Translations under genes and position numbers: made by a program | The notes under the pieces: model-generated | The model's database searches: none | What the model saw: only the letters and a program-made list of their open reading frames with translations | What the model was told of the DNA's origin: nothing | From: Hanstruepera marina | GTDB taxonomy: Bacteria > Bacteroidota > Bacteroidia > Flavobacteriales > Flavobacteriaceae | DNA length: 64,000 nt | Direction of reading: 5' to 3' | NCBI RefSeq assembly: GCF_019880635.1 | Contig: NZ_JAINVX010000001.1 | Coordinates: 124,001-188,000, forward strand | Shown: one piece after another, positions 12,931 to 24,175 of the stretch | Position numbering within the stretch: position 1 is the stretch's first letter | Layout: every line of letters starts with the position of its first letter

Positions 12931-14098
12931 TGTTTTTCTTGCTTTGCGGTTTACGACGACGTTTGTTTTTATTTCCTCTATTACTTTTACGTTTATTTCG
13001 CCGTTTTGGACTATCAAATCGCGTTAAACTATCTTGACCAACAACGTTTTCAAATTCAGTTTTAGTATCTTCAACCAAATCTGCTGCGTATTCTTCAAGG
13101 CTTGCTACCTTTTTCTTTTGTTTATTTAATGCTAGTATTTCGTTGGCTTGATCTTTGGTTATTTTGTGCCAATTCATCCATTCGCCTTCATAAGCAAACC
13201 ACATATGGCCTTTAAAAATATCTGTTTTTTGGCAAACTGCTGTTCCTTTTTCCGTATAGAGTTTAACATCAGACTTTGGAAAATCTTTTAAAGCATCTAA
13301 ATAGGTGTCTAACTCATAATTTAAGCAGCATTTTAATTTACCACATTGCCCAGCTAACTTAAGAGGGTTTAACGATAATTGTTGATATCGTGCTGCAGAT
13401 GTACTTACAGAGCGAAAATCTGTTAACCAAGTTGAACAGCATAATTCACGACCACACGAACCTATTCCGCCTAAACGAGCAGCTTCCTGTCGGAAACCAA
13501 CCTGTCGCATCTCTATCCGTGTTTTAAATTCTTTTGCGAATAGTTTAATAAGCTCGCGGAAATCTACGCGCTCTTCTGCCGTATAATAAAATGTTGCCTT
13601 ACTGGCATCGCCTTGGTATTCAATATCTGAAATCTTCATTTGAAGTTTCAAGTCTATAGCAAACTGTCTTGCCTTAACTTTCATAGGTTCTTCCTTATCA
13701 CGAGCTGCAGACCAAATATCTATATCCTTTTGACTGGCTTTTCTATATATCTTAAAAGCCTCTGGGTCATCTTCAGAAAGTTTTTTGCGTTTCATTTGAA
13801 CACGAACCAGCTCGCCTGTTAAGGTAACCATTCCTATATCGTGACCGTACTCGGCTTGTGTTGCAACAACATCGCCTATACTTAAGGTTAAATTTTCGGT
13901 GTTTTTATAGTAGTGCTTTCTACCGTTTTTAAATCGGACCTCAACCCAGTTAAAAGGTTCTACTCCGTTGGGTAATGCCATATTGGCTAACCAATCAAAA
14001 ACCGTTAGCTTGTTACAACTATCGGTTCCACAAGTTCCATTATTCTTGCATCCTTTTGGCTGACCATCTTTTCCTGTTGAACATGTTCCACAAGCCAT
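12920..14098 (-). CDS. ricT: PSP1-domain iron-sulfur protein RicT (YaaT) family
   Basis: The 392-residue protein belongs to the RicT/YaaT family. In Bacillus subtilis RicT works with RicA and RicF in an Fe-S-containing complex affecting RNase Y and mRNA maturation; whether it does this here is inference. The N-terminus is a Bacteroidota-style Cys-rich extension (CGTCSTG, GCKNNGTCGTDSC). The central PSP1 domain contains GSCGRELCCSTWL and AGQCGKLKCCLNYE, the Cys pairs expected to hold the cluster. The last 25 residues are strongly basic (KRRNKRKSNRGNKNKRRRK), consistent with RNA contact. It is first in the ricT-gldH-PBP1A unit. Confidence 0.9.
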   Translation of the reverse strand: MACGTCSTGKDGQPKGCKNNGTCGTDSCNKLTVFDWLANMALPNGVEPFNWVEVRFKNGRKHYYKNTENLTLSIGDVVATQAEYGHDIGMVTLTGELVRVQMKRKKLSEDDPEAFKIYRKASQKDIDIWSAARDKEEPMKVKARQFAIDLKLQMKISDIEYQGDASKATFYYTAEERVDFRELIKLFAKEFKTRIEMRQVGFRQEAARLGGIGSCGRELCCSTWLTDFRSVSTSAARYQQLSLNPLKLAGQCGKLKCCLNYELDTYLDALKDFPKSDVKLYTEKGTAVCQKTDIFKGHMWFAYEGEWMNWHKITKDQANEILALNKQKKKVASLEEYAADLVEDTKTEFENVVGQDSLTRFDSPKRRNKRKSNRGNKNKRRRKPQSKKNNAK

Positions 14099-14203
14099 AA
14101 ATTAAAGATATATATAGATTCTGAACGCAAATTCAGAAGACGATTAATACTAAAAATAAAACGTAAAGATAAGATTATTCTAATGACTTTAAAAAGCGAT
14201 TGT

Positions 14204-15208
14204 TTAATTGAATTCTATTTCGTAATTCAATCGGTTTGACAGCGATCTAAGAGTCGCTTTAGACTTAAAAGCATTTTTAAATAAGGTATTGCTCCAACCT
14301 ATTTTTTTTGAGTAGGCATTAAAGCTTTCATTTTTCCAATCGAACCCATCCTTCCAAAATTTTTGAGGTGAAATATAGCAAAATGTATAATCGAAAATTA
14401 AACTCGACTCATTGGTTTCATCTTTTCTAGGAATTTCTTCTGAAGCCAACAGCATAATATTATTAGCTTTACAGCTCGCCTTAATATTTTGAATGAGCTT
14501 AGGGTAGTCATCTCTAATAGTCTCTAAATCGAAATCAGAATACTCGGTATTACCAATTTTTTGAATAGGGCGAATTTGAAGAATGTCAAAACTATTACCG
14601 TCGAAGTGCTGAAAAAACTCTTGAAGTTCGTAGAAGTTATCTTTATTGAATGTGTAATTGATACGGACTTTAAAATTGTATCGTGATTTTAATTTAGCAA
14701 AGGCCTTAAACGCATTGTGGAACTTTTCATAACTCGCCTTTTTCATAAAACTTTCATAACTGGCTTTTGTAACTCCATGCAATGAAATGGTAAATTCGTT
14801 TAAACCTGCTTTGAGTAGCTTTTCAATTTTTTCTTCATCCAACAAATTGGCATTAGTTGTTATGGAAATATAGGGCACATTATACTTTTTACCCAACGCC
14901 ACAACCTTATCTAAATCTTTATATAGAGTGGGTTCTGTACCACATCCTATTTGAAGTTTTAAAGCACGTTTAAAAATGGTTTTAGCTACTTGATTGAGTT
15001 CTTCCTCCTTAAATTGCCCTTTTAAGGTTTTAACATAATCCGCATCTGTAAAATAGCACATCTTGCACCGCAAATTACAAGCCATAACTGGGTCTAGGTT
15101 TACTGCCAAATAGCGATGGTTAAATTTATGCAGTAGAAATAACCCTAGAAATTTAATTCTATGGCTTTTGATACGTCTGTTTAACTTTAAAAGTTTGTAA
15201 ATGTTCAT
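14204..15208 (-). CDS. Radical SAM protein of unknown substrate in the TrhO/TrhP operon
   Basis: The 334-residue protein has the radical SAM cluster motif C44-NLR-C48-KM-C51 followed by Phe-Thr, so it should bind a 4Fe-4S cluster and cleave S-adenosylmethionine. The central part follows the SPASM/MoaA-like barrel pattern, with GCGTEPTLY in the place of the GGEP motif. The C-terminal part is poor in cysteine (one Cys, in FCYISPQKFW), so a full SPASM set of auxiliary-cluster ligands is missing. Its start overlaps the stop of the ferredoxin gene by 1 base (TAATG), making it the last gene of a tight four-gene operon. The substrate is unknown; given its partners, an RNA-modification role is possible but unproven. 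Confidence 0.85.
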   Translation of the reverse strand: MNIYKLLKLNRRIKSHRIKFLGLFLLHKFNHRYLAVNLDPVMACNLRCKMCYFTDADYVKTLKGQFKEEELNQVAKTIFKRALKLQIGCGTEPTLYKDLDKVVALGKKYNVPYISITTNANLLDEEKIEKLLKAGLNEFTISLHGVTKASYESFMKKASYEKFHNAFKAFAKLKSRYNFKVRINYTFNKDNFYELQEFFQHFDGNSFDILQIRPIQKIGNTEYSDFDLETIRDDYPKLIQNIKASCKANNIMLLASEEIPRKDETNESSLIFDYTFCYISPQKFWKDGFDWKNESFNAYSKKIGWSNTLFKNAFKSKATLRSLSNRLNYEIEFN

Positions 15209-15438
15209 TAATTCAACTTTACGCTTATAATTTTTACTGGACAGGCTTTAGCAGCATTATCACAAGCATTGTAAATTTCGTTGTCATTTGATTTTACAGT
15301 ATAAAATCCTTTTTTGTCTTTAGCATGCAGCAATACTGTTTTTCCGTCTTTTTTTGACATTTGAAACATTTCAGGTGCCATTTCCACGCAATAGTTGCAC
15401 CCAATACACTTATTACGTTGCAAGGTAATAATAACCAT
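15208..15438 (-). CDS. Small 4Fe-4S ferredoxin
   Basis: The 76-residue protein has the pattern C11-x2-C14-x2-C17 and a distant C66-Pro, the ligand set of a single 4Fe-4S ferredoxin; an extra Cys at 59 could form a disulfide. It overlaps both neighbours by 1 base in TAATG junctions, upstream with the U32 gene and downstream with the radical SAM gene, so the three proteins should be made together. The likely job is electron supply to the Fe-S enzyme encoded on either side. The position suggests a dedicated rather than housekeeping ferredoxin. Confidence 0.9.
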   Translation of the reverse strand: MVIITLQRNKCIGCNYCVEMAPEMFQMSKKDGKTVLLHAKDKKGFYTVKSNDNEIYNACDNAAKACPVKIISVKLN

Positions 15439-16685
15439 TAGGCTTCTACTTTATTTTCAACAATTTTATAAAGTTTATCTGAAGGCCGAATTCTAAAATC
15501 TAAAGGCATAGTTACTAAATCGCCTTTTTGACCTTTGTTGTTTTTGGCATCATTGACCATTAAATCTGAAACCTCACATTCTTTGGCCCCAGTTGTTGGC
15601 CCTGTGACCAAGATAGTGTCTCCAATGGCTATATCAAATGCTTCAATTTTAAATTCTCCTATTTTGGCTTTAGGATAAAAATGTGTGCCTTTACCAATAT
15701 AAACTTTCTTTTGGGTGGCGTGAGATCCCGACCCATTGCTCCATTCGCCTAATTTCTGCCCTAAATAATAGCCGCTCCAAAATCCGCGATTATAGACTTT
15801 TTCCAATTCCTGCATCCAAGAAACAACTTTTTCTTTGTCATACGTGCCATTTGCAACACTGTTTATGGCATCTCGATAGCATTTAATGACCTTGGCTACA
15901 TATTCTGGAGCCCTTCCACGACCTTCAATTTTTAAAACTTTTATGCCTGAATCTGCTATTTGGTCAAGAAAATCTATGGTACACAAATCTTTTGGAGACA
16001 TGATATATTCGTTATCCAACTCCATTTCAATACCTGTTTCCTGATCTATTACTGTATATTTTTTTCTGCAATTTTGTTTACAAGCACCTCTATTGGCTGA
16101 CGAATTATAGGCATGTAAACTCATATAACACTTTCCAGAAACCGCCATACATAAAGCACCGTGACCAAAAATTTCTACCTCAACCAACTTGCCAGAAGGC
16201 CCTTTTATTTGCTCTTTTTCTATCTGCTCGGTAATGTTTTTAACCTGTCGCAAACTCAATTCACGACTCAATACCATAGTGTCTGCAAACATGGCATAAA
16301 ACTTAACCGTTTCAATATTAGTAATGTTAATTTGAGTAGAAATGTGTACTTCCATATCAAATTCACGAGCTATTGCAATCACCGCTTGGTCCATTGCAAT
16401 AACTGCAGTAATGTTTGCCTCTTTAGCTTTTTTTACTAAAGTTTTTACGATAGACAAATCATGGTCGTAAATTATGGTATTCAAGGTTAAATAGGTTCGA
16501 ACCCCTTTTTCCTGACAACGTTTAGATATTTCCGGTAAATCGTCTAATGTGAAATTAATAGATGCTCTGGCCCGCATGTTTAATTGTTCGACACCAAAAT
16601 ACACCGAATCTGCACCATTATCTAAAGCTGCCTGAAGTGATTCAAAATTCCCTGCAGGCGCCATTAATTCAATTTTTTGCATCAT
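15438..16685 (-). CDS. trhP: Peptidase U32 family protein, TrhP-like (prephenate-dependent tRNA U34 hydroxylation)
   Basis: The 415-residue protein starts with the U32 hallmark MAPAGNFESLQAALDNGADSV and has four conserved cysteines, C179, C186, C202 and C206 (in LCMAVSGKC and ACKQNC), the Fe-S ligand pattern of TrhP/RlhA proteins. A C-terminal beta domain follows (YIGKGTHFYPKAKIG to LYKIV). The length fits TrhP of E. coli (YegQ) and TrhP2 of B. subtilis (YrrO), which make 5-hydroxyuridine at tRNA position 34 with prephenate as hydroxyl source. Despite the family name a protease role is unlikely. It starts 1 base after the trhO stop. Another U32 subtype (for example RlhA) cannot be fully excluded, but adjacency to trhO favours TrhP. 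Confidence 0.85.
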   Translation of the reverse strand: MMQKIELMAPAGNFESLQAALDNGADSVYFGVEQLNMRARASINFTLDDLPEISKRCQEKGVRTYLTLNTIIYDHDLSIVKTLVKKAKEANITAVIAMDQAVIAIAREFDMEVHISTQINITNIETVKFYAMFADTMVLSRELSLRQVKNITEQIEKEQIKGPSGKLVEVEIFGHGALCMAVSGKCYMSLHAYNSSANRGACKQNCRKKYTVIDQETGIEMELDNEYIMSPKDLCTIDFLDQIADSGIKVLKIEGRGRAPEYVAKVIKCYRDAINSVANGTYDKEKVVSWMQELEKVYNRGFWSGYYLGQKLGEWSNGSGSHATQKKVYIGKGTHFYPKAKIGEFKIEAFDIAIGDTILVTGPTTGAKECEVSDLMVNDAKNNKGQKGDLVTMPLDFRIRPSDKLYKIVENKVEA

Positions 16686-16686
16686 A

Positions 16687-17769
16687 TCAACTTTTAGATT
16701 CCTCTGGTTTTTTCAACACCTCAAATATGTTACGCAAATCTTTTTTATAGGGTAAATGGTCTGCGCGACCTTTCTTGAAAATATCATTACTGTTGCCTTG
16801 CCCTTTTCGCAAAGTTTTTTGTTCTTCGTATGGTAAGTGAATAATTTCCTGGCAGTGGGTTGAACAACAATTTTCCATTTTTTCTTTACATGCCTTACAC
16901 TGAATAAACAATAAATGGCAAGCATCGTTTGCACAGTTGGTGTGCGAGTCAGCTGGTTCTCCACATTGGTGACATTGCGCTATAACATCGTCTGTAATAC
17001 GTTCTGAACGACGCTCGTCAAACACAAAGTTTTTACCAATAAACTTGTTCTCCAATCCTTTTTCTTCAACTTGACGTGTATAATTAATTATACCGCCTTC
17101 TAATTGAAATACTTGTTTGAAGCCTTTATGTTTGTAATAAGCACTCGCTTTTTCACAACGAATACCACCAGTACAATACATAACCAACTTCTTGTCTTCT
17201 TTATGGTTTTTTAAATCTTCTTCAATAATATCAAGAGATTCTCTAAAAGTATCAACATCTGGTGTCACGGCATTTTTAAAATGACCTATTTCACTTTCGT
17301 AATGGTTACGCATATCTACCAAAACCACATCTGGATCTTCTATAAGTTCGTTAAACTGTTCGGCTTGAACGTGAATGCCTTTGTTTGTCACATCAAAGGT
17401 TTCATCGTTTAAACCATCGGCCACAATTTTATCACGTACTTTTACTTTTAATTTAAGAAATGCAAAGTTGTCGTGCTCTATGGCAATATTTAACCGAACA
17501 TTTTCTAAAAATGAAATGGTATCTAAATGGTTCTTGAAGGTCTTAAAATTTTCTGCTGGCACTGAAAGCTGGGCATTTATGCCTTCGTTGGCGACATAAA
17601 TCCGCCCTAAAACATCTAGTTTATTCCATTCAATGAATAAACTATTCCTGAAATCTAAAGGGTCTTCAATTTTGGCGTATTTATAGAAAGAGATGGTAAG
17701 CCTGTCTTTTCCGGCTTTTTCAATTAATGCAGCTCTTTCTTTAGCGCTTAAGTTATTGTACAGTTGCAT
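16687..17769 (-). CDS. trhO: Oxygen-dependent tRNA uridine(34) hydroxylase TrhO (rhodanese-domain, YceA family)
   Basis: The 360-residue protein has the YceA/TrhO layout. An acylphosphatase-like N-terminal domain contains YVANEGINAQLSVP, the rhodanese domain contains VDMRNHYESEIGHFKNA and the active-site loop YCTGGIRCEKAS (Cys 199 catalytic, Cys 205 nearby), and a Cys/His-rich C-terminus (CHQCGEPADSHTNC, CKACKEKMENCC) is probably metal binding. TrhO uses molecular oxygen to hydroxylate wobble U34 of several tRNAs, giving ho5U, the precursor of cmo5U/mo5U. It is the first gene of the four-gene operon, with a -7 box about 40 bases upstream. Confidence 0.93.
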   Translation of the reverse strand: MQLYNNLSAKERAALIEKAGKDRLTISFYKYAKIEDPLDFRNSLFIEWNKLDVLGRIYVANEGINAQLSVPAENFKTFKNHLDTISFLENVRLNIAIEHDNFAFLKLKVKVRDKIVADGLNDETFDVTNKGIHVQAEQFNELIEDPDVVLVDMRNHYESEIGHFKNAVTPDVDTFRESLDIIEEDLKNHKEDKKLVMYCTGGIRCEKASAYYKHKGFKQVFQLEGGIINYTRQVEEKGLENKFIGKNFVFDERRSERITDDVIAQCHQCGEPADSHTNCANDACHLLFIQCKACKEKMENCCSTHCQEIIHLPYEEQKTLRKGQGNSNDIFKKGRADHLPYKKDLRNIFEVLKKPEESKS

Positions 17770-17807
17770 GCTATACTAATGTGTTAAGGTTAAAGATATA
17801 TTTTGCG

Positions 17808-17815
17808 CAAAAATA
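17808..17815 (-). promoter_or_regulatory. trhO: -7 box of the trhO-trhP-ferredoxin-radical SAM operon
   Basis: On the minus strand this reads TATTTTTG, matching the Bacteroidota TAnnTTTG consensus. It would give a 5' leader of about 35 bases before the trhO ATG. No good -33 TTG is visible at the expected spacing. Confidence 0.5.
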
Positions 17816-17858
17816 CAACTTTTAAAATGAATGTGGATTTTCTATTTAAAACCATAAA

Positions 17859-17887
17859 AAAAGCGCCCTGTTTTTCAGGACGCTTTT
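17859..17887 (-). terminator. Rho-independent terminator of the small transcription unit upstream of recA
   Basis: The stem AAAAGCG/CGCTTTT plus CCTG/CAGG has one internal mismatch and a TTTTT loop. On the minus strand it is followed by seven U from the A-tract at 17856-17862. It points leftwards and has no annotated gene in front of it other than the 30-codon reading frame at 17949-18041. Confidence 0.75.
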
Positions 17888-17948
17888 AGTAGACTAACTC
17901 GTTATTAATATTTTTTTCATTCTTCTAAATCAAAAAATATAATAAGAG

Positions 17949-18041
17949 CTAACCTCCATCGGCTTTACAGCTGCTGTTTATAAATACAACCGCTGAAACG
18001 CCTAACGCGTTAATTAATAAAGTTTTTTTAATAAATCTCAT
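17949..18041 (-). CDS. 30-codon lipoprotein-like peptide (unannotated small ORF)
   Basis: The frame from ATG 18041 to TAG 17949 encodes a 30-residue peptide: a basic start (MRFIKK), a hydrophobic core (LLINALGVSAVVFI), then NSSCKADGG. This has the shape of a very short lipoprotein signal peptide with a 6-residue mature part beginning at Cys 25, although the lipobox NSSC is imperfect. It is enclosed by a promoter-like TTG-N21-AACTTTTG (18111-18142) and a strong terminator (17859-17887), all in the same direction, so an RNA of about 225-250 bases is expected. It could instead be a small RNA. I do not recognise a family. Confidence 0.5.
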   Translation of the reverse strand: MRFIKKTLLINALGVSAVVFINSSCKADGG

Positions 18042-18110
18042 CTGTACAATTTTTAGTTATTAAAAAGGGCAGATGGAATTAATGCAATGGAATTACAATC
18101 GATTTCATAG

Positions 18111-18142
18111 CAAAAGTTTCCCACTTTATATAGTAGATGCAA
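18111..18142 (-). promoter_or_regulatory. Putative promoter of the small transcription unit upstream of recA
   Basis: On the minus strand TTG (18142-18140) is followed after 21 bases by AACTTTTG (18118-18111), one mismatch from TAnnTTTG. Transcription would start about 65 bases before the 30-codon ORF. It overlaps no other gene and is back-to-back with the recA promoter. Confidence 0.4.
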
Positions 18143-18169
18143 AAAGTACAAAAAGGTTGCGTCAGAAAA

Positions 18170-18200
18170 TTGTAATATGATAAAAGTTGTAGTATTTTAG
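18170..18200 (+). promoter_or_regulatory. recA: Putative recA promoter
   Basis: TTG at 18170-18172 is followed by 20 bases and TATTTTAG at 18193-18200, one mismatch from the TAnnTTTG -7 box. The recA leader would be about 25 bases. I see no obvious LexA-type operator. Confidence 0.5.
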
Positions 18201-18228
18201 CTGTCCATTCAGCAAAATTTAAGAGAAA

Positions 18229-19233
18229 ATGAGCAACGAAAAAGACGCAAAATTAAAAGCACTAAAACTTACTTTAGATAAATTAGATAAAGCCTACGGA
18301 AAAGGAACTGTAATGAAAATGAGCGACCAAGCAGTGGTTGATGTCGACTCCATTCCCTCTGGTTCATTAGGCTTAGATATCGCTCTTGGTGTGGGCGGCT
18401 ACCCTAGAGGTCGTGTAATTGAAATTTATGGCCCTGAATCATCTGGTAAAACAACCTTAACACTTCATGCTATAGCTGAAGCGCAAAAAGCTGGAGGCAT
18501 TGCAGCTTTTATAGATGCAGAACATGCTTTTGACAGGTTTTATGCTGAAAAACTAGGTGTTGATATTGACAACTTAATTATATCGCAGCCCGATAATGGC
18601 GAGCAAGCTTTAGAGATCGCAGATAACTTAATACGTTCAGGCGCTATTGATATTGTAGTTATTGACTCGGTAGCAGCTTTAACTCCAAAAAGCGAGATTG
18701 AGGGCGAAATGGGAGATTCTAAAATGGGTTTACATGCCCGATTAATGTCTCAAGCCTTAAGAAAATTAACGGCTTCAATTAGCAAAACCAATTGTACCGT
18801 TATTTTTATTAACCAATTGCGCGAAAAAATTGGTGTTATGTTTGGTAATCCTGAAACCACAACTGGAGGTAATGCATTAAAGTTTTATGCCTCTGTACGT
18901 TTGGACATTAGACGCTCCACACAAATTAAAGAAACCGATGGTAATGTAGCTGGAAATAAAACACGTGTAAAAGTTGTAAAGAATAAAGTAGCGCCTCCTT
19001 TTAAAACAGCAGAGTTCGATATTATGTATGGCGAAGGTGTTTCTAAAGTTGGTGAAATTTTAGATATCGCTGTTGAGCATGAAATTGTTAAGAAAAGTGG
19101 TTCTTGGTTTAGCTATGAAGATACCAAGCTTGGTCAAGGGCGTGATGCTGTAAAAGCTTTAATTAAAGACAATCCTGAACTAATGGACGAACTTGAAGGA
19201 AAAATTCGAGCCATTTTAAATGAATCCAAATAA
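18229..19233 (+). CDS. recA: Recombinase RecA
   Basis: The 334-residue protein is RecA, the ATP-dependent strand-exchange protein of homologous recombination and the trigger of SOS-type responses. Walker [10 protein letters not shown] is at 68-76, Walker B is in [10 protein letters not shown], and the L2 region contains [16 protein letters not shown] with the usual [15 protein letters not shown] following. Length is normal for Bacteroidota; the acidic C-terminal tail is short. It is transcribed alone, with its own promoter and a terminator directly after the stop. Confidence 0.97.
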
Positions 19234-19263
19234 AAAAAATCCCGAAGCTTCGTGATTTTTTTT
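19233..19263 (+). terminator. Rho-independent terminator of recA
   Basis: An A-rich/T-rich stem around the core CGAAGCTTCG begins at the recA stop codon and ends in an eight-T run at 19256-19263. The T-run overlaps the -33 element proposed for the next gene. Confidence 0.75.
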
Positions 19264-19292
19264 GCTTTTAGACGCAACCTTTTTAAACTTTG
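19262..19292 (+). promoter_or_regulatory. Putative promoter of the lipoprotein-sigma-anti-sigma operon
   Basis: TTG at 19262-19264, a 20-base spacer and AAACTTTG at 19285-19292 (one mismatch from TAnnTTTG) form a plausible promoter with a leader of about 40 bases. It lies immediately behind the recA terminator. Confidence 0.45.
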
Positions 19293-19337
19293 TGCATCTA
19301 AAGAGTAAACATGTATATAAAACATTAGAATTTAACC

Positions 19338-19745
19338 ATGAGAAAGCTTGTTGTTTTACTCTTTTCTCTCTTTGCTTTATCGTGTAGTATTGATGATGAT
19401 AATGAGAGAGTTTACAATGTAATACTTCCTGTTGAAGATGCGGTTGTCCCAACAGAGTTTGAGCGCGGTGAAGTTTATGATATTTATCTCAAGTACTTTC
19501 GCCCTACATCCTGTTACGCTTACAATGATGTGTATTATGTAAGAGAAGGTAATGAAAGAATGGTAGCCGTTGTTAATACTGTGTTTGAAGGTGATTATGA
19601 ATGTGTTGAAGTAAATGAATTACTTGACACTCAATTCTCCTTTAAAGCAGGGGAAGAAGACTCTTATGTGTTTAAGTTTTGGCAAGGAGAAGATGATAAT
19701 GGAGACAGTCAGTATCTAATTATTGAAGTCCCCGTGGTAGATTAG
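19338..19745 (+). CDS. Small acidic lipoprotein, first gene of the sigma/anti-sigma operon
   Basis: The 135-residue protein has a type II signal peptide with lipobox ALSC (Cys 16) followed by an acidic stretch SIDDDNE, as in many surface-exposed Bacteroidota lipoproteins. The mature part is about 120 residues with two cysteines (in PTSCYAY and DYECVEV) and looks like one beta-rich domain; I do not recognise the family. The stop is only 18 bases before the proposed sigma-factor start and a promoter lies in front of it, so the three genes probably form one operon. An accessory or sensing role in that pathway is inference. Confidence 0.75.
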   Translation: MRKLVVLLFSLFALSCSIDDDNERVYNVILPVEDAVVPTEFERGEVYDIYLKYFRPTSCYAYNDVYYVREGNERMVAVVNTVFEGDYECVEVNELLDTQFSFKAGEEDSYVFKFWQGEDDNGDSQYLIIEVPVVD

Positions 19746-19763
19746 TAAATGTTTAATTAATAT

Positions 19764-20315
19764 GTGTGTCATGTGAGTTTAAAACAACTCATAAAAAAAT
19801 GTAGTAAAAATGATACTCAAGCTCAAAGCGAATTATACCAACTCTTTTCGAGTAAATTGTTTTCGGTATGCTTGAAGTATTCAAGAAACTATGCTGAAGC
19901 AGAAGATAATCTGCAAGATGCATTTTTGACTATATTTAGTAAAATTGCACAGTATAGAGATAAAGGTTCTTTTGAAGGTTGGCTTAAACGTATTACAATT
20001 AATACCGCCTTGCAGCGCTATAGGAGTCAAGGTGTTTTTGAAATTGTAAACGAAGAATTTATTGAAGATGTTGAATTAGATATTGACGACAATGATATTT
20101 CAATTGATTTTTTGTTGAAAATTATTCAAGAGTTACCTGATAGGTATAGATTGATATTTAATATGTATGTTTTAGATGGTTATTCCCATCATGAAATTGC
20201 AGAAATGCTTTCAATAAGTATGGGAACCTCTAAATCTAATTTAGCTAGAGCTAGAAAGATACTAATAGAAAAAATTGAAGATTATAAAGCGCGATTAAAT
20301 TCGCAATCATTATAA
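19764..20315 (+). CDS. ECF-type RNA polymerase sigma factor
   Basis: The 183-residue protein has the two ECF sigma domains. Region 2 contains LKYSRNYAEAEDNLQDAF and the DNA-melting helix FEGWLKRITINTALQRYR. Region 4 has the helix-turn-helix YSHHEIAEMLSISMGTSKSNL. No ATG is available at the front; the start is GTG 19764 or, giving the more usual MSLKQLI, GTG 19773. Its stop overlaps the start of the next gene by one base (TAATG), the normal arrangement of a sigma factor with its anti-sigma factor. It should direct RNA polymerase to stress or envelope genes when released; its targets are unknown. Confidence 0.93.
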   Translation: MCHVSLKQLIKKCSKNDTQAQSELYQLFSSKLFSVCLKYSRNYAEAEDNLQDAFLTIFSKIAQYRDKGSFEGWLKRITINTALQRYRSQGVFEIVNEEFIEDVELDIDDNDISIDFLLKIIQELPDRYRLIFNMYVLDGYSHHEIAEMLSISMGTSKSNLARARKILIEKIEDYKARLNSQSL

Positions 20316-21949
20316 TGAGCGATAAAAAACACATTGATAGAGTTTTTCAAGAAAAGCTAAAGGACTTTGAGGTTTCTCCCAATCCTGAACTTTGGACAAA
20401 AATTCAAAACGAACTCAAGTTAGAAGACGACCAACCCAAAAAGGTGTTTCCTATTTGGTTGCGTCTAGCTGGTATTGCTGCCGTTTTAGCTATACTATTC
20501 ACAATAGGCTCTTTTGTTTTTGATAGCAATGCATCAAAAAGTAATGATCCTGCAACAAAAACAGTAGATAACAATACAAAACCTTCTTCAGAAAAGAACT
20601 CTAAAGAATTAAATAATAAACTAACAAACAATCCCGAAACATCAACAGCAAATATAGATGATAATGAAGGCAATAATAGCGATATAAATAGTTTAGAAAG
20701 TCATCCTAAAAATTCCAACCCTTCTAATTTAGATAATGATAATACTGCAAACAAAATAGCTTCAGAAAACAACAGAGACAATAAGCCGTCCAAAAACAAA
20801 AGAAATGAGTTTCTAGACAACGAAACAAAATCGGCTCAAGTTTCAGGTATTAGTTCACCTAATAATCATGAATCATCTGAACTAAACAATGCTCCAGATA
20901 CCAGAACAGCTACAAACGACCCGAATTCTGCCAATATCAATACTATAAATAACGTGTCTTCAAATCCTGAAGCAAATCAAACCAAAACAGCACAAGCAAA
21001 AAACAATCTTAAAACTGAATTAGATACAGATGCTGCCAATCGTGCTTTAGGAAAAGAAAATACTCAAAATGCAATTGCCTTAAATGCTATGAAAGGCAAT
21101 AACCCTCATAATGAAAAAGAAAAAGAGGAATCCTTAAAAGTTGGTGATTCATTGAACAGTGAGTCACCTTCTATAGAGGAAGCAATAGCGCAAGCTGAAG
21201 AATTAAATGAAAAAGAAGAAGAGAAAGAAAAATTAGTAAACAGGTGGCAAGTTTATGCAAATGTTGCGCCTGTTTACTATAACTCATTTGGTGAAGGTTC
21301 TCATATTGACGAACAGTTTGTTTCCAATTCAAAAAGTGGTGAGGTAAATATGAGCTATGGTGTTAATGTTAGTTATGCTTTAAGCAAAAAGCTAGCAGTT
21401 CGATCAGGAATAAGTTCTTTAAATTTAAGCTACGATACCGATAATGTTATTTTATATGAAAGTCCTAATAGTGGTACTGGAAATCCTATAAATCCTATGC
21501 GTAACATTAATTTGGCTCCTGGAAGTCAGTCGCTAAATGCCTTTAGTGGTGAAAATTTAGGCTTTCAGCAAATTATAAGCGATTTGTCTAATGCGGCCAT
21601 TAGTCAGCGTTTAAGCTATTACGAAGTTCCTGTTGAACTTGAATATAAATTAGTTAACAATCGTTTTAGCCTTGGTTTAATTGGTGGTGTAAGTACATTT
21701 TTCTTAAATGATAATGAAGTCTATTCTGAATTTGAAGAATATACAACTTATATTGGCGAAGCAAATAATGTAAATAATGTTAGTTTTAGTACTAATTTAG
21801 GTATTGGAATGAATTACAATTTTTCAGAACATTTTAGATTTAATTTAGAACCTACTTTTAAATATCATTTAAATGCGTTTAATAATACCTCTGGTAGTTT
21901 TAGGCCGTATATAATTGGTCTTTATACCGGTTTTAGTTATAAATTTTAG
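20315..21949 (+). CDS. Anti-sigma factor fused to an outer-membrane beta-barrel (dual membrane-spanning type)
   Basis: The 544-residue protein has three parts. Residues 1-45 are cytoplasmic, with an anti-sigma-like helix SPNPELWTKIQNEL. Residues 46-69 are one inner-membrane helix (PIWLRLAGIAAVLAILFTIG). About 70-307 are a low-complexity Asn/Ser/Lys/Glu-rich linker. From about 309 to the last residue Phe 544 the sequence has beta-barrel strands (WQVYANVAPVYYN, KLAVRSGISSLNLSYD, SLGLIGGVSTFFL, IIGLYTGFSYKF) and ends in Phe, as outer-membrane proteins do. One protein would thus reach from cytoplasm to outer membrane and control the sigma factor encoded just upstream. I recall a similar class, Dma, described in Bacteroides thetaiotaomicron. 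Confidence 0.88.
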   Translation: MSDKKHIDRVFQEKLKDFEVSPNPELWTKIQNELKLEDDQPKKVFPIWLRLAGIAAVLAILFTIGSFVFDSNASKSNDPATKTVDNNTKPSSEKNSKELNNKLTNNPETSTANIDDNEGNNSDINSLESHPKNSNPSNLDNDNTANKIASENNRDNKPSKNKRNEFLDNETKSAQVSGISSPNNHESSELNNAPDTRTATNDPNSANINTINNVSSNPEANQTKTAQAKNNLKTELDTDAANRALGKENTQNAIALNAMKGNNPHNEKEKEESLKVGDSLNSESPSIEEAIAQAEELNEKEEEKEKLVNRWQVYANVAPVYYNSFGEGSHIDEQFVSNSKSGEVNMSYGVNVSYALSKKLAVRSGISSLNLSYDTDNVILYESPNSGTGNPINPMRNINLAPGSQSLNAFSGENLGFQQIISDLSNAAISQRLSYYEVPVELEYKLVNNRFSLGLIGGVSTFFLNDNEVYSEFEEYTTYIGEANNVNNVSFSTNLGIGMNYNFSEHFRFNLEPTFKYHLNAFNNTSGSFRPYIIGLYTGFSYKF

Positions 21950-22011
21950 TTTTTAGTTGGTTAGATTGATTGACTTTCCTAGTCTTAAGGGAAAGCAATG
22001 ATGAACAAAAG

Positions 22012-22037
22012 GTCGCTCTTCTGCAGAGCGACTTTTT
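22012..22037 (+). terminator. Rho-independent terminator of the sigma/anti-sigma operon
   Basis: A perfect 8-bp stem GTCGCTCT/AGAGCGAC (22012-22019 with 22025-22032) with a 5-nt loop is followed by five T. It ends inside the stop region of the convergent plsC gene. Confidence 0.85.
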
Positions 22038-22773
22038 AATTTAAGTCATCTTGTAATGTTTTTAAAATCGCTTCTCTAGACTGGGTGTTGAGCCGCTTGG
22101 TATCTGCAATGGTCAATTCTTTTGTCTGAATATGCTCATGTCCAATTACACGCATTTGTCCAGGGCTGCCACTAAAGAACGTGTAACTAAATCGTTTTTT
22201 ATTATCAAGAAAAACAAGAGGGACAATAGGAACTTGATGGTTAATGGCCAATCGAAACGCTCCGTCTTTAAAATCGTCAAGAATTATATGCTCTTCTGGC
22301 ACACCTCCTTCTGGGAAAATACAAATGCTCAAACCTTGTTTCAAACGTTTTTGAGCTCTTAAAAAAACAGCTTTTCTACTCTTTTCTGAACTTCTATCGA
22401 CCAATATGCATGTACGCTTATAGAAAAAACCAAACAAAGGAATTTTTGCCAACTCTTTCTTGCCCACAAATACAAAAGGATTTTTTGAACTTGCAAGCAT
22501 GAGCATAATATCAGCCATAGAGGTATGATTGGCAATAAACATATAGCTCGCCTTCTTTTGAGGTTCCTGCTTCAGATTAATTTTAACCCGAAAGCCCATT
22601 CCAATTAAAATAAAGTAAGCCCAAAAACGGGCGAGTTTAAAAAAAAAGGGATACCAAGACTCTTTAGAAATGGAAACCAACAGTATTGGAAACAAAGCAA
22701 TAATTGGTATAGCTACCAAAATATAAAACCAAATACGATACAAAATCCAAAATAGATACTTGAATATAATCAT
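22036..22773 (-). CDS. plsC: 1-acyl-sn-glycerol-3-phosphate acyltransferase
   Basis: The 245-residue membrane enzyme adds the second acyl chain to lysophosphatidic acid in phospholipid synthesis. It has the acyltransferase motif NHTSMAD (His 83, Asp 88) and the FPEGG motif, after two N-terminal hydrophobic segments. I start it at ATG 22773 (MIIFKYLFW). A TTG three codons upstream could be called as a start but is the last three bases of a perfect -7 box TATTTTTG, so it cannot be the initiator. The C-terminus is converged upon by the sigma operon terminator. Confidence 0.9.
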   Translation of the reverse strand: MIIFKYLFWILYRIWFYILVAIPIIALFPILLVSISKESWYPFFFKLARFWAYFILIGMGFRVKINLKQEPQKKASYMFIANHTSMADIMLMLASSKNPFVFVGKKELAKIPLFGFFYKRTCILVDRSSEKSRKAVFLRAQKRLKQGLSICIFPEGGVPEEHIILDDFKDGAFRLAINHQVPIVPLVFLDNKKRFSYTFFSGSPGQMRVIGHEHIQTKELTIADTKRLNTQSREAILKTLQDDLN

Positions 22774-22779
22774 AGGTGC

Positions 22780-22787
22780 CAAAAATA
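22780..22787 (-). promoter_or_regulatory. plsC: -7 box of plsC, almost touching the start codon
   Basis: On the minus strand this reads TATTTTTG, a full TAnnTTTG match. The start codon is 6 bases downstream, so the mRNA would have a leader of only a few bases. It decides against the upstream TTG start. Confidence 0.55.
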
Positions 22788-22839
22788 ATGATATATATTT
22801 ATTATCTTTAGAAATACTAACTTTAAAAATTAAACTATT

Positions 22840-23082
22840 ATGAGTTTACTTTATGCATTACTTATTGGCGCTATAGCTGGATGGCTGGGCGGAAAATTAA
22901 TGAAAGGTGGTGGGTTTGGATTACTAATAAATATCATTTTAGGTATTATTGGTGGGATTGTAGGAAATTGGGCTTTTGGAGCATTGGGAATTTCAATTTC
23001 TGATGGTGTTTTAGGCGATATTATTACAGGTGCCGTTGGTGCTGTAATTGTACTTTTTGTAGCTGGGTTATTTAAAAAATAA
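22840..23082 (+). CDS. GlsB/YeaQ/YmgE family small stress-response membrane protein
   Basis: The 80-residue protein is almost entirely hydrophobic and glycine-rich, with three predicted membrane segments and the family pattern IGAIAGWLGGKLMKGGG then GIIGGIVGNW. Members are transglycosylase-associated inner-membrane proteins induced by stress; their biochemical role is not settled. A near-consensus -7 box TAACTTTA lies at 22818-22825 and a terminator follows, so it is transcribed alone. The divergent plsC promoter is next to it. Confidence 0.9.
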   Translation: MSLLYALLIGAIAGWLGGKLMKGGGFGLLINIILGIIGGIVGNWAFGALGISISDGVLGDIITGAVGAVIVLFVAGLFKK

Positions 23083-23110
23083 CTTTGCTGATAAAATAAC
23101 TTAAATATAT

Positions 23111-23138
23111 AAAAGTGGTTTAAAAGCCACTTTTTTTT
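23111..23138 (+). terminator. Rho-independent terminator after the GlsB-like gene
   Basis: The stem AAAAGTGGTTT/AAGCCACTTTT with a 2-base spacer between the arms and a following T-run (23131-23138) lies 28 bases past the stop codon. Confidence 0.8.
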
Positions 23139-23153
23139 GTTCGCAACTATAAG

Positions 23154-23161
23154 TACATTTG
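23154..23161 (+). promoter_or_regulatory. trpS: -7 box of trpS
   Basis: TACATTTG is a full match to TAnnTTTG. The nearest TTG upstream is 14 bases away, which is short. The predicted leader of about 40 bases contains the hairpin at 23184-23201. Confidence 0.5.
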
Positions 23162-23183
23162 TCCTATTGATAATCTAAAAAGA

Positions 23184-23201
23184 TTTCTGCTTTTGCAGAA
23201 A
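23184..23201 (+). repeat. Hairpin in the trpS leader, degenerate copy of the ATTCCTGC palindrome
   Basis: The perfect 7-bp stem TTTCTGC/GCAGAAA with a TTTT loop ends 5 bases before the trpS start codon. It resembles the palindrome at 50574-50593 with paired changes in both arms, and it would cover the ribosome binding region when folded. Confidence 0.65.
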
Positions 23202-23206
23202 ATATT

Positions 23207-24175
23207 ATGGCAAGAATATTAACAGGAATACAAAGTACAGGAACACCACATTTAGGAAATATTTTAGGCGCTATTATGCCTGCAATTGACATGGCGAATA
23301 AGCCAGAAAACGATTCATTTCTCTTTATCGCTAATTTACACACACTTACACAAATAAAAAATGCTGAAGAGTTAAGACACAACACGTACTCTGTAGCAGC
23401 TACATGGTTAGCTTTCAGATTAGATATAGAAAAAACAGTATTTTACAGACAAAGCGATGTGCCTCAAGTTACAGAACTTGCATGGTATTTAAATTGTTTT
23501 TTTCCGTTTAAAAGATTGCAATTGGCTCATGGATTTAAAGATAAAGCCGATAGATTAGACGATGTAAACTCGGGCTTATTTATGTATCCTATGTTAATGG
23601 CGGCAGATATTCTGTTGTATGATGCCAACCTTGTACCTGTTGGCAAAGACCAGTTACAGCATATTGAGATGACACGTGATGTAGCTTCACGTTTTCATGC
23701 CAAAATGGGGGAAACCTTTGTATTGCCAGAAGGCAAAATACAGGAGAATACCATGCTTATTCCGGGAACCGATGGTGAAAAAATGAGTAAGAGTCGTGGT
23801 AACATTATCAACATATTTTTAGACGATAAAAAATTGCGTAAGCAAATTATGTCTATTAAAACTGATAGCACACCATTGGAAGATCCTAAAGACTGGAAAA
23901 CCTGTAATTGTTTTGCCTTGTATAACATTTTAGCTTCTGCTGAAGATGTTGCAAAAATGAAAGCCAATTACGAAGCTGGCGGTTATGGTTATGGTCATGC
24001 CAAACAAGAACTTTTTGAATTAATAGTTGAAAAATTTGCAGAACCTCGTAAACGCTATAACCATTATATGGCGAACTTGAACGAAATAGACGAAGCACTA
24101 CAAATTGGTGCTGAAAAAGCAAAGCGAGTAGCTAACGAGGTGCTAAATCGTGTTCGTGGAAAGATTGGGTATTAA
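23207..24175 (+). CDS. trpS: Tryptophan--tRNA ligase
   Basis: The 322-residue class I aminoacyl-tRNA synthetase charges tRNA-Trp. The HIGH-like motif is TPHLGN at 13-18 and the KMSKS motif is intact at 192-196. The tryptophan pocket region FFPFKRLQLAHGFKDKADR is typical. Length is normal. It starts 5 bases after a leader hairpin. Its last 4 bases overlap the end of the convergent dprA gene, so no terminator separates them. Confidence 0.96.
   Translation: MARILTGIQSTGTPHLGNILGAIMPAIDMANKPENDSFLFIANLHTLTQIKNAEELRHNTYSVAATWLAFRLDIEKTVFYRQSDVPQVTELAWYLNCFFPFKRLQLAHGFKDKADRLDDVNSGLFMYPMLMAADILLYDANLVPVGKDQLQHIEMTRDVASRFHAKMGETFVLPEGKIQENTMLIPGTDGEKMSKSRGNIINIFLDDKKLRKQIMSIKTDSTPLEDPKDWKTCNCFALYNILASAEDVAKMKANYEAGGYGYGHAKQELFELIVEKFAEPRKRYNHYMANLNEIDEALQIGAEKAKRVANEVLNRVRGKIGY

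Follow-up and report, generated by a model that had tools for sequence, protein, structure and literature searches.

A predicted Dma-type sigma/anti-sigma module beside recA in Hanstruepera marina, with a candidate surface-protein regulon and a predicted divergent micropeptide RNA

Background

Downstream of recA in the flavobacterium Hanstruepera marina lie genes for a lipoprotein, an extracytoplasmic function (ECF) sigma factor and a long anti-sigma protein. This arrangement raises two questions: could a single polypeptide report from the outer membrane to a sigma factor in the Flavobacteriaceae, and what would such a system control? The DNA analysed, hereafter the window, is a stretch of 64,000 nucleotides (assembly GCF_019880635.1, contig NZ_JAINVX010000001.1, positions 124,001 to 188,000, forward strand); coordinates below are those of the window. 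A sequence-only reading had proposed that the pair is a flavobacterial version of the dual membrane-spanning anti-sigma factors (Dma) of Bacteroides thetaiotaomicron. These proteins restrain ECF factors and reach from the outer membrane to the cytosol, with a sigma-binding N-terminus, one transmembrane helix, a long disordered tether and a C-terminal barrel (PMC13088901).

We consider it likely that the locus is an autoregulated, Dma-type outer-membrane sensing module of Flavobacteriaceae whose regulon takes in surface-protein genes and a micropeptide RNA. The Dma-type identity is well supported in the predicted anatomy, while function is assigned by analogy. As far as a limited literature search goes, three things are new here and go beyond the earlier reading: the promoter held in common, the small regulon of surface proteins, and the divergent micropeptide RNA with its hairpin beside recA. 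The elements of the locus are as follows.

19274..19299, + strand: ECF-type promoter GCAACC-N14-GCATCT, an exact match, directly 3' of the recA terminator and 5' of the three-gene set
19338..19745, + strand: lipoprotein gene, 135 residues, an open reading frame (ORF) with a lipobox; product predicted at the surface and all-beta, with two conserved Cys beyond the lipobox
19773..20315, + strand: ECF sigma factor gene, 180 residues, start placed at GTG 19773 from the relatives (the longest frame begins at GTG 19764)
20315..21949, + strand: gene for the Dma-like anti-sigma protein, 544 residues, identified by alignment, AlphaFold2 and Foldseek
18229..19233, + strand: recA, between two promoter copies, a conserved neighbour that we do not propose as part of the circuit

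Conservation of the three-gene set

Relatives of the anti-sigma protein were collected by a scan, which retained 80 of 98 loci. The sigma gene adjoins the anti-sigma gene in all 80 (gap of -4 to 10 bases); in the window the two overlap by one base, as had been read from the sequence, the stop codon TAA 20313-20315 sharing a base with ATG 20315. Conservation of the three-gene order, put forward earlier as a check, was borne out: recA, lipoprotein, sigma and anti-sigma genes follow one another in 78 of the 80 loci. In L060 recA lies 1.5 kb away from the rest of the set. Among the 80 loci, those of Gilvibacter (L077 and L081) have no recognisable lipoprotein; a promoter-like sequence remains 5' of their sigma gene, and a 22-residue variant peptide ending in NCRLDGG is present.

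As this sample had been selected via the anti-sigma protein, a search with sigma and lipoprotein profiles was also made in 120 family genomes, each from a different genus. The sigma gene, scored present at E ≤1e-60, was found in 103 genomes and the lipoprotein in 82, and in 77 of the 82 the lipoprotein gene lies 11-112 bases 5' of the sigma gene, so that its conservation at this position holds. This adjacency count was made on 110 sigma rows, from which further copies in a genome that had been scored once were omitted; in many genomes part of the lipoprotein candidates was scored, which makes absences soft.

A predicted two-membrane anti-sigma protein

The sigma ORF exceeds the Pfam cut-offs for Sigma70_r2 and Sigma70_r4_2, and Pfam and NCBIfam assign it to the ECF level only. 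The gap to the lipoprotein gene had been given as 18 bases, counted to GTG 19764; since relatives begin at the position of GTG 19773 (MSLKQL, 180 residues), it is probably 27 bases.

For the anti-sigma protein, an alignment of 53 sequences served as the basis of an AlphaFold2 model. The model has helices over residues 3-19 and 24-33; a third helix (47-69) is hydrophobic and has the highest 19-residue hydropathy in the protein, and a further helix lies at 287-304. Residues 71-283 mostly have a predicted local distance difference test score (pLDDT) below 50 and are modelled as disordered, and the C-terminus holds eight long strands within 311-543, mostly with pLDDT above 90. The predicted parts are:

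residues 1-34: putative sigma-binding helices
residues 47-69: inner-membrane helix
residues 70-286: tether
residues 287-304: helix
residues 311-544: eight-strand barrel

The two N-terminal helices are conserved and include an invariant MSDKKHID, which fits a sigma-binding part, binding itself being a prediction. Mean identity to the window protein is 67% over residues 1-34, 17% over 70-280, 42% over 281-310 and 53% in the barrel; conserved ends around a variable, length-shifting middle are the pattern expected for a tether that joins two fixed functional ends. The tether is 217 residues long here, somewhat shorter than the approximately 240 stated earlier, and ranges from 143 to 279 across the alignment. 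A SIEEAI stretch and an acidic helix just N-terminal to the barrel (residues 281-310) are conserved inside this variable region; that SIEEAI, at the helix start, is a regulatory or cleavage site is a guess.

By Pfam the C-terminus weakly matches an outer-membrane barrel, below cut-off, and OMP_b-brl is matched by 30 of the 53 aligned members at E 0.001. The best Foldseek matches of the model are OmpA barrels (9fzc, E 6.1e-9), not the soluble periplasmic fold that the sequence-only reading had named as speaking against itself, and the terminal Phe that it had pointed out is present in all 53 members. An ordinary anti-sigma factor spanning one membrane, with a periplasmic C-terminal beta domain, would also agree with a location that is predicted only, and the same genome has a single-helix anti-sigma-like protein of 260 residues at L156, followed by a separate barrel-like gene. 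Set against the eight-strand OmpA-like barrel, the terminal Phe (53/53) and the OMP_b-brl matches (30/53), we hold that explanation to be very improbable, and we retain the Dma-like layout. The earlier proposal of a flavobacterial Dma version is thus supported in part, namely in its four-part anti-sigma layout and in the lipoprotein conserved behind a conserved promoter. Likeness to Dma was judged by layout.

Other arrangements were seen in passing. At L156 (G000:C8:324500-328500) the layout is 'split', i.e. an ECF sigma gene, the gene for the 260-residue anti-sigma-like protein (one hydrophobic stretch and no barrel, by eye) and a separate gene for an exported barrel-like protein; it is possibly a precursor or a breakdown form of the Dma fusion. 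Dispersed through the class, there are frames of 460-520 residues that match the Dma-like profile at its two ends (e.g. G128, G105 and G199). G159, of the same family, also has a frame matching the N- and C-terminal parts of the profile; none of these is known to be Dma1 or Dma2.

A promoter motif shared with genes for predicted exported proteins

An AAC -35 box and a CATC -10 box are the usual form of ECF promoters, and the sequence ahead of the lipoprotein gene has this form. In an alignment of 78 rows, one of them the window (L058 was not included), the promoter claimed earlier for the lipoprotein gene is present in all 78 lipoprotein-bearing relatives, exact in 65 and one base off in the -10 box in 13. 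It lies 19-122 bases 5' of the ATG, with the consensus ACGCAACCtTTt...tgCATCTa; its general form is [A/G]CGCAACC-N14-GCATCT, and variants change one of the first two bases of the -10 box.

The motif is also enriched in genomes of the family, as judged against counts of the reversed pattern in the same genomes: 219 exact matches were found in the 120 genomes and 5 for the reversed pattern. It occurs in 86 of the 103 sigma-bearing genomes and in 2 of the 17 sigma-less ones (Fisher p 1.2e-8, uncorrected for kinship). Motif density is 0.06 per Mb in sigma-less genomes; in the others, on an assumed 3.5 Mb, it is about 0.6. In a second set of 60 relatives, which includes the own genome of the window and overlaps the 120, 85 matches stood against 4 for the reversed pattern, and the motif was present in 29 of 34 genomes with a sigma ortholog (at least 245 bits) and in 3 of 26 without, again uncorrected for kinship.

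The genome of the window has four exact copies, two of them at the recA locus. The third lies 16 bases 5' of a gene for a DUF11-type exported protein (L085; the relative L123 matches DUF11) and the fourth 17 bases 5' of a lipoprotein gene (L086). Sites of this genome with one mismatch do not behave in this way, none of seven having an ORF at that spacing. Five genomes of the genus hold 16 exact sites away from the recA locus. Each of the 16 is followed, after 8-38 bases, by the start of an ORF, and all 16 encoded proteins have a predicted export signal (by eye). Ten are lipoproteins, compared with 6 of 56 window genes (Fisher p 7e-5, the 16 sites not being independent, as they group by eye into about nine gene families). 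The ten (L086, L124-L127, L129, L132 and L134-L136) were called by eye, since the automatic pattern flagged the barrel protein L131 and missed L132; in the background, one of seven flagged window rows (41345) was discounted. Ten target proteins were compared with family models: five of them contain DUF11, carboxypeptidase-regulatory, LRR/DUF7619, barrel or LVIVD-repeat domains, the other five being unmatched apart from a weak TIGR04134 match. Outside the genus, 32 exact sites were inspected; 16 lie no more than 45 bases from an ORF of 60 codons, and 5 others are divergent from recA.

From this distribution we infer that the motif is read chiefly by the sigma factor of the locus. Alternatively, a different regulator, or more than one ECF factor, might use the motif; a Flavobacterium study warns that its own ECF motif may be common to several sigma factors (PMC9723704), and 17 of the 103 sigma-bearing genomes have no exact match. 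Such a reading fits poorly with the fixed orientation of the genus sites and their 8-38 bases to start codons, with the motif standing before the operon itself in 78 of 78 cases, and with its link to the presence of this sigma ortholog. Moreover, the motif is absent from both strands of the fetched 4-kb stretches around the two next-best ECF loci of the same genome. We regard this alternative as improbable and keep this sigma factor as the chief candidate reader.

The lipoprotein: sensor or output

The lipoprotein has a lipobox (...FALSCSIDDD), and C16, C59 and C89 are invariant in 78 sequences. Past the lipidated Cys, polar and then acidic residues follow, as in a surface-export signal: in 77 sequences (L008 was dropped, its start codon having been set too late), Ser occupies position +2 in 61, and at least two acidic residues lie at +2 to +6 in 71. 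This N-terminus resembles the Bacteroidota export signals SDDDD of B. fragilis and SDDFE of F. johnsoniae (PMC5080379). The conserved lipoprotein is thus one that carries a surface-export signal, its surface location being a prediction.

The structure was modelled with confidence as an all-beta domain (mean pLDDT 88.9). Against sequences of the PDB, the lipoprotein gave a single match (E 0.71, residues 1-27), and Foldseek with the model returned nothing below E 0.015. VIA-align gave many Ig-like folds at Z ≤6.2; these matches are weak and generic, and may reflect merely a common arrangement. The B. fragilis lipoprotein 3nqi is among them (Z 5.8, root-mean-square deviation 3.4, 97 residues). 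A NigD identity was considered because Dma1 of B. thetaiotaomicron acts through its target nigD1 (PMC13088901), and was rejected on sequence grounds: Pfam searches with the 78 members gave scattered weak matches, with no NigD model among the families matched, and NigD_C was found in 1 of 30 genomes of the class and not in the own genome.

In a class-wide search, the absences of which are also soft, the lipoprotein was found in 7 of 295 genomes: five, the own genome among them, belong to the same family and two to a different family in the order. In these two (L162 and L163) the relative adjoins a gene for a 211-residue methyltransferase-like protein (named by eye), with no sigma gene within the fetched 3.3-kb stretch around it.

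The sequence-only reading saw in the lipoprotein a possible extra sensor or ligand. It may also be asked whether the Dma-like pair is real and the lipoprotein is an output of the regulon, made under stress and first in the operon by chance. Several findings agree with this: the other 16 genus sites also precede genes for exported proteins, ten of them lipoproteins; the lipoprotein was not found in 21 of the 103 sigma genomes, and one family member (L160) keeps it without an adjacent sigma gene; and Dma1 of B. thetaiotaomicron works through a target, nigD1 (PMC13088901). The nearly strict adjacency to the sigma gene where the lipoprotein exists (77/82) argues the other way. We give the output reading a substantial chance, somewhat short of even, and keep a sensing role beside the barrel as the working proposal.

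The predicted divergent RNA and its micropeptide

The second copy of the promoter in the window faces away from recA and opens a short series of elements:

18135..18160, - strand: second promoter copy, divergent from recA, an exact match
18103..18111, - strand: 5' element GCTATGAAA of the short RNA, conserved
17949..18041, - strand: micropeptide ORF, 30 residues, MRFIKKTLLINALGVSAVVFINSSCKADGG, found by comparison of relatives
17892..17954, - strand: long, conserved hairpin that includes the micropeptide stop codon, from folding of 41 relatives
17856..17889, - strand: intrinsic-terminator-like hairpin of the micropeptide RNA, 5' of trhO, from the window sequence and terminators in alignments

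The order in the window is thus promoter, GCTATGAAA, ORF of 30 codons, hairpin, terminator and trhO. L020, in which recA is at a contig edge, was left out of the divergent-promoter, micropeptide and codon counts. The recA-divergent copy is present in 72 of 79 relatives, 60 times exactly, the copy of L073 being doubtful. The element GCTATGAA is exact in 52 of the 72 segments and in 0.15% of shuffles. An ECF-type promoter and a short terminated transcript, the features of an ECF-transcribed small RNA, are therefore both predicted here.

At this place 47 of 80 loci, the window's among them, have a short ORF whose product has a Cys near its end and finishes in GG; two of the 47 are variants. In about half of the loci the peptide has 28-30 residues and ends in CKADGG. 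This type of end was found once per genome in 10 of 60 genomes, always within about 240 bases of this promoter. In the last six codons (n=44; L077 and L081, with the variant peptide ending in CRLDGG, were left out), pairs of sequences disagree at position 1 and at position 2 in 0.8% of comparisons each, and at position 3 in 17%. A purely non-coding reading of the RNA was rejected for about half of the loci because of this third-position variation. Some third positions (GCC, TGT) hardly vary, so that a constraint at the RNA level is possible.

The hairpin around the stop codon had a median z of -4.4, below -2 in 40 of 41 relatives; these are the loci, out of 72 with the promoter, where the pattern finds both ends, a selection that favours structure. 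Paired changes were seen by eye in several lineages. Lineages without the peptide mostly retain promoter, start element and terminator. In three relatives the ATG of GCTATGAAA is the start of the micropeptide frame itself, and the lineages that have no peptide therefore probably lost it. Decaying ORFs, with an early stop or an altered end, were observed at L057, L078, L079 and L039, the promoter still being present.

A canonical lipoprotein was rejected as the identity of the peptide: the residues ahead of its Cys (NSSC, NSNC or NGNC) misfit the usual lipobox pattern, for which reason we call it a micropeptide and not a lipopeptide. It matched no NCBIfam or PHROGs family, and a limited text search found no literature match to the CKADGG string.

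We put forward, tentatively and as a rather unlikely whole, that the recA-divergent RNA is a dual-function feedback arm: a membrane micropeptide ending in CKADGG, made on each release of the sigma factor, would reset or tune the sensor via the anti-sigma protein or the lipoprotein, and the hairpin RNA would be separately regulatory, outliving a decayed peptide. Another account makes the transcript the leader, or attenuator, of trhO and not an independent RNA. A short ORF, a hairpin at its stop codon and then a terminator 5' of trhO resemble an attenuation leader; Phe_leader of Rfam matches weakly (28.1 bits against a cut-off of 55, E 0.037), nothing at positions 14000-23500 of the window reaching the Rfam gathering score; and a site of the F. 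psychrophilum motif SM6 is listed for yceA, a gene of the trhO kind (PMC9723704). The micropeptide, however, has no homopolymeric stretch, and it is at the C-terminus that it is conserved. Between terminator and trhO, the window also has a box of the TAnnTTTG type (consensus from PMC9723704), so that trhO may have its own promoter. We judge the leader account unlikely, and continue with an independent micropeptide RNA.

On the same strand, the micropeptide RNA is followed by trhO (O2-dependent tRNA uridine-34 hydroxylase, over cut-off). At positions 14204-17769 of the window (- strand), trhO and three further genes lie nearly end to end; the three encode a U32 protein of the TrhP kind (below cut-off), a small protein resembling ferredoxin and a radical SAM protein.

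Proposed mechanism and its weight

In the resting state, the anti-sigma protein would keep the sigma factor at the inner membrane through its N-terminal helices, with tether and barrel anchored in the outer membrane. Trouble at the outer membrane or with surface lipoproteins would be felt by the barrel, perhaps also by the co-encoded lipoprotein, and would alter the tether, by cutting or lost anchoring, so that the sigma factor is freed. It would then read GCAACC-N14-GCATCT promoters, first that of its own operon, renewing sensor and lipoprotein, but also that of the divergent micropeptide RNA beside recA and those of a small gene set for surface lipoproteins and other exported proteins. In F. 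johnsoniae, TamL depletion raises 13 of 16 affected surface lipoproteins (PMC12045153); it would be a natural candidate for the trigger, the passages of that report concerned here not naming this system.

Several observations weigh against this proposal. No micropeptide was recognised in 33 of 80 loci. The soft absences of the lipoprotein in 21 of 103 sigma-bearing genomes, together with L160, where it stays beside recA, indicate that it is not strictly required. As regards the motif, besides the 17 sigma-bearing genomes without an exact copy, sigma-less genomes are mostly smaller, and 11 of the 32 exact sites outside the genus are neither ORF-linked nor recA-divergent, so that some matches are chance; of these 11, L116 and L119 have the lipoprotein 48-50 bases off and L117 a 30-residue peptide ending in CRVDGG. 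Finally, SM6 also covers genes of the type IX secretion system (T9SS) and may serve several sigma factors (PMC9723704). At L160, the stretch between the lipoprotein and acyltransferase genes holds no sigma or anti-sigma genes.

With Dma proteins, one polypeptide would signal directly to a sigma factor from the outer membrane. In flavobacteria, sensor and lipoprotein come as a fixed pair, the promoter code is nearly strict, candidate targets among surface proteins are already listed and the micropeptide is conserved, so that the stimulus, the output and the feedback can be tested in marine or soil strains amenable to genetics. If the proposal is true, traffic of surface lipoproteins, a hallmark of the phylum, has its own dedicated transcriptional control.

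Comparison with known systems

In E. coli, outer-membrane trouble frees the ECF factor sigma-E, which autoregulates and makes small RNAs; its inhibitor RseA spans one membrane and needs outside sensors. Release on outer-membrane trouble, autoregulation and a small RNA are likewise proposed here, whereas the C-terminus of the inhibitor is here a predicted outer-membrane barrel, and the RNA would code for a peptide. The FecR/FecI system also passes an outer-membrane signal to an ECF factor, as would the present one. Domain scans, however, did not match a FecR domain in the anti-sigma protein, and the flanks here are recA and an acyltransferase gene, not a TonB-dependent receptor gene.

The closest likeness in layout is to Dma itself, in which an ECF sigma gene also stands beside a four-part anti-sigma gene; loss of Dma2 strongly raises its own operon, and the dma2 operon also has an extra small gene without assigned function (PMC13088901). 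Unlike there, the lipoprotein here is first in order, has no recognised NigD domain and was found only in Flavobacteriales among the genomes searched; the locus goes together with recA, and its promoter recurs in front of a predicted micropeptide RNA that is divergent from recA.

In F. psychrophilum, SM6 comprises ECF-type promoters with mapped transcription starts 5' of an ECF/anti-sigma pair, yceA and the small RNA Rfp11, i.e. the kinds of elements, a trhO-type gene included, that surround the motif here (PMC9723704). It differs in being described by a CGT box and in covering T9SS and Band-7 genes, and the passages on SM6 describe no lipoprotein, Dma layout or micropeptide (PMC9723704). By analogy, the SM6-linked pair, yceA and Rfp11 may nevertheless be the F. 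psychrophilum counterparts of this locus.

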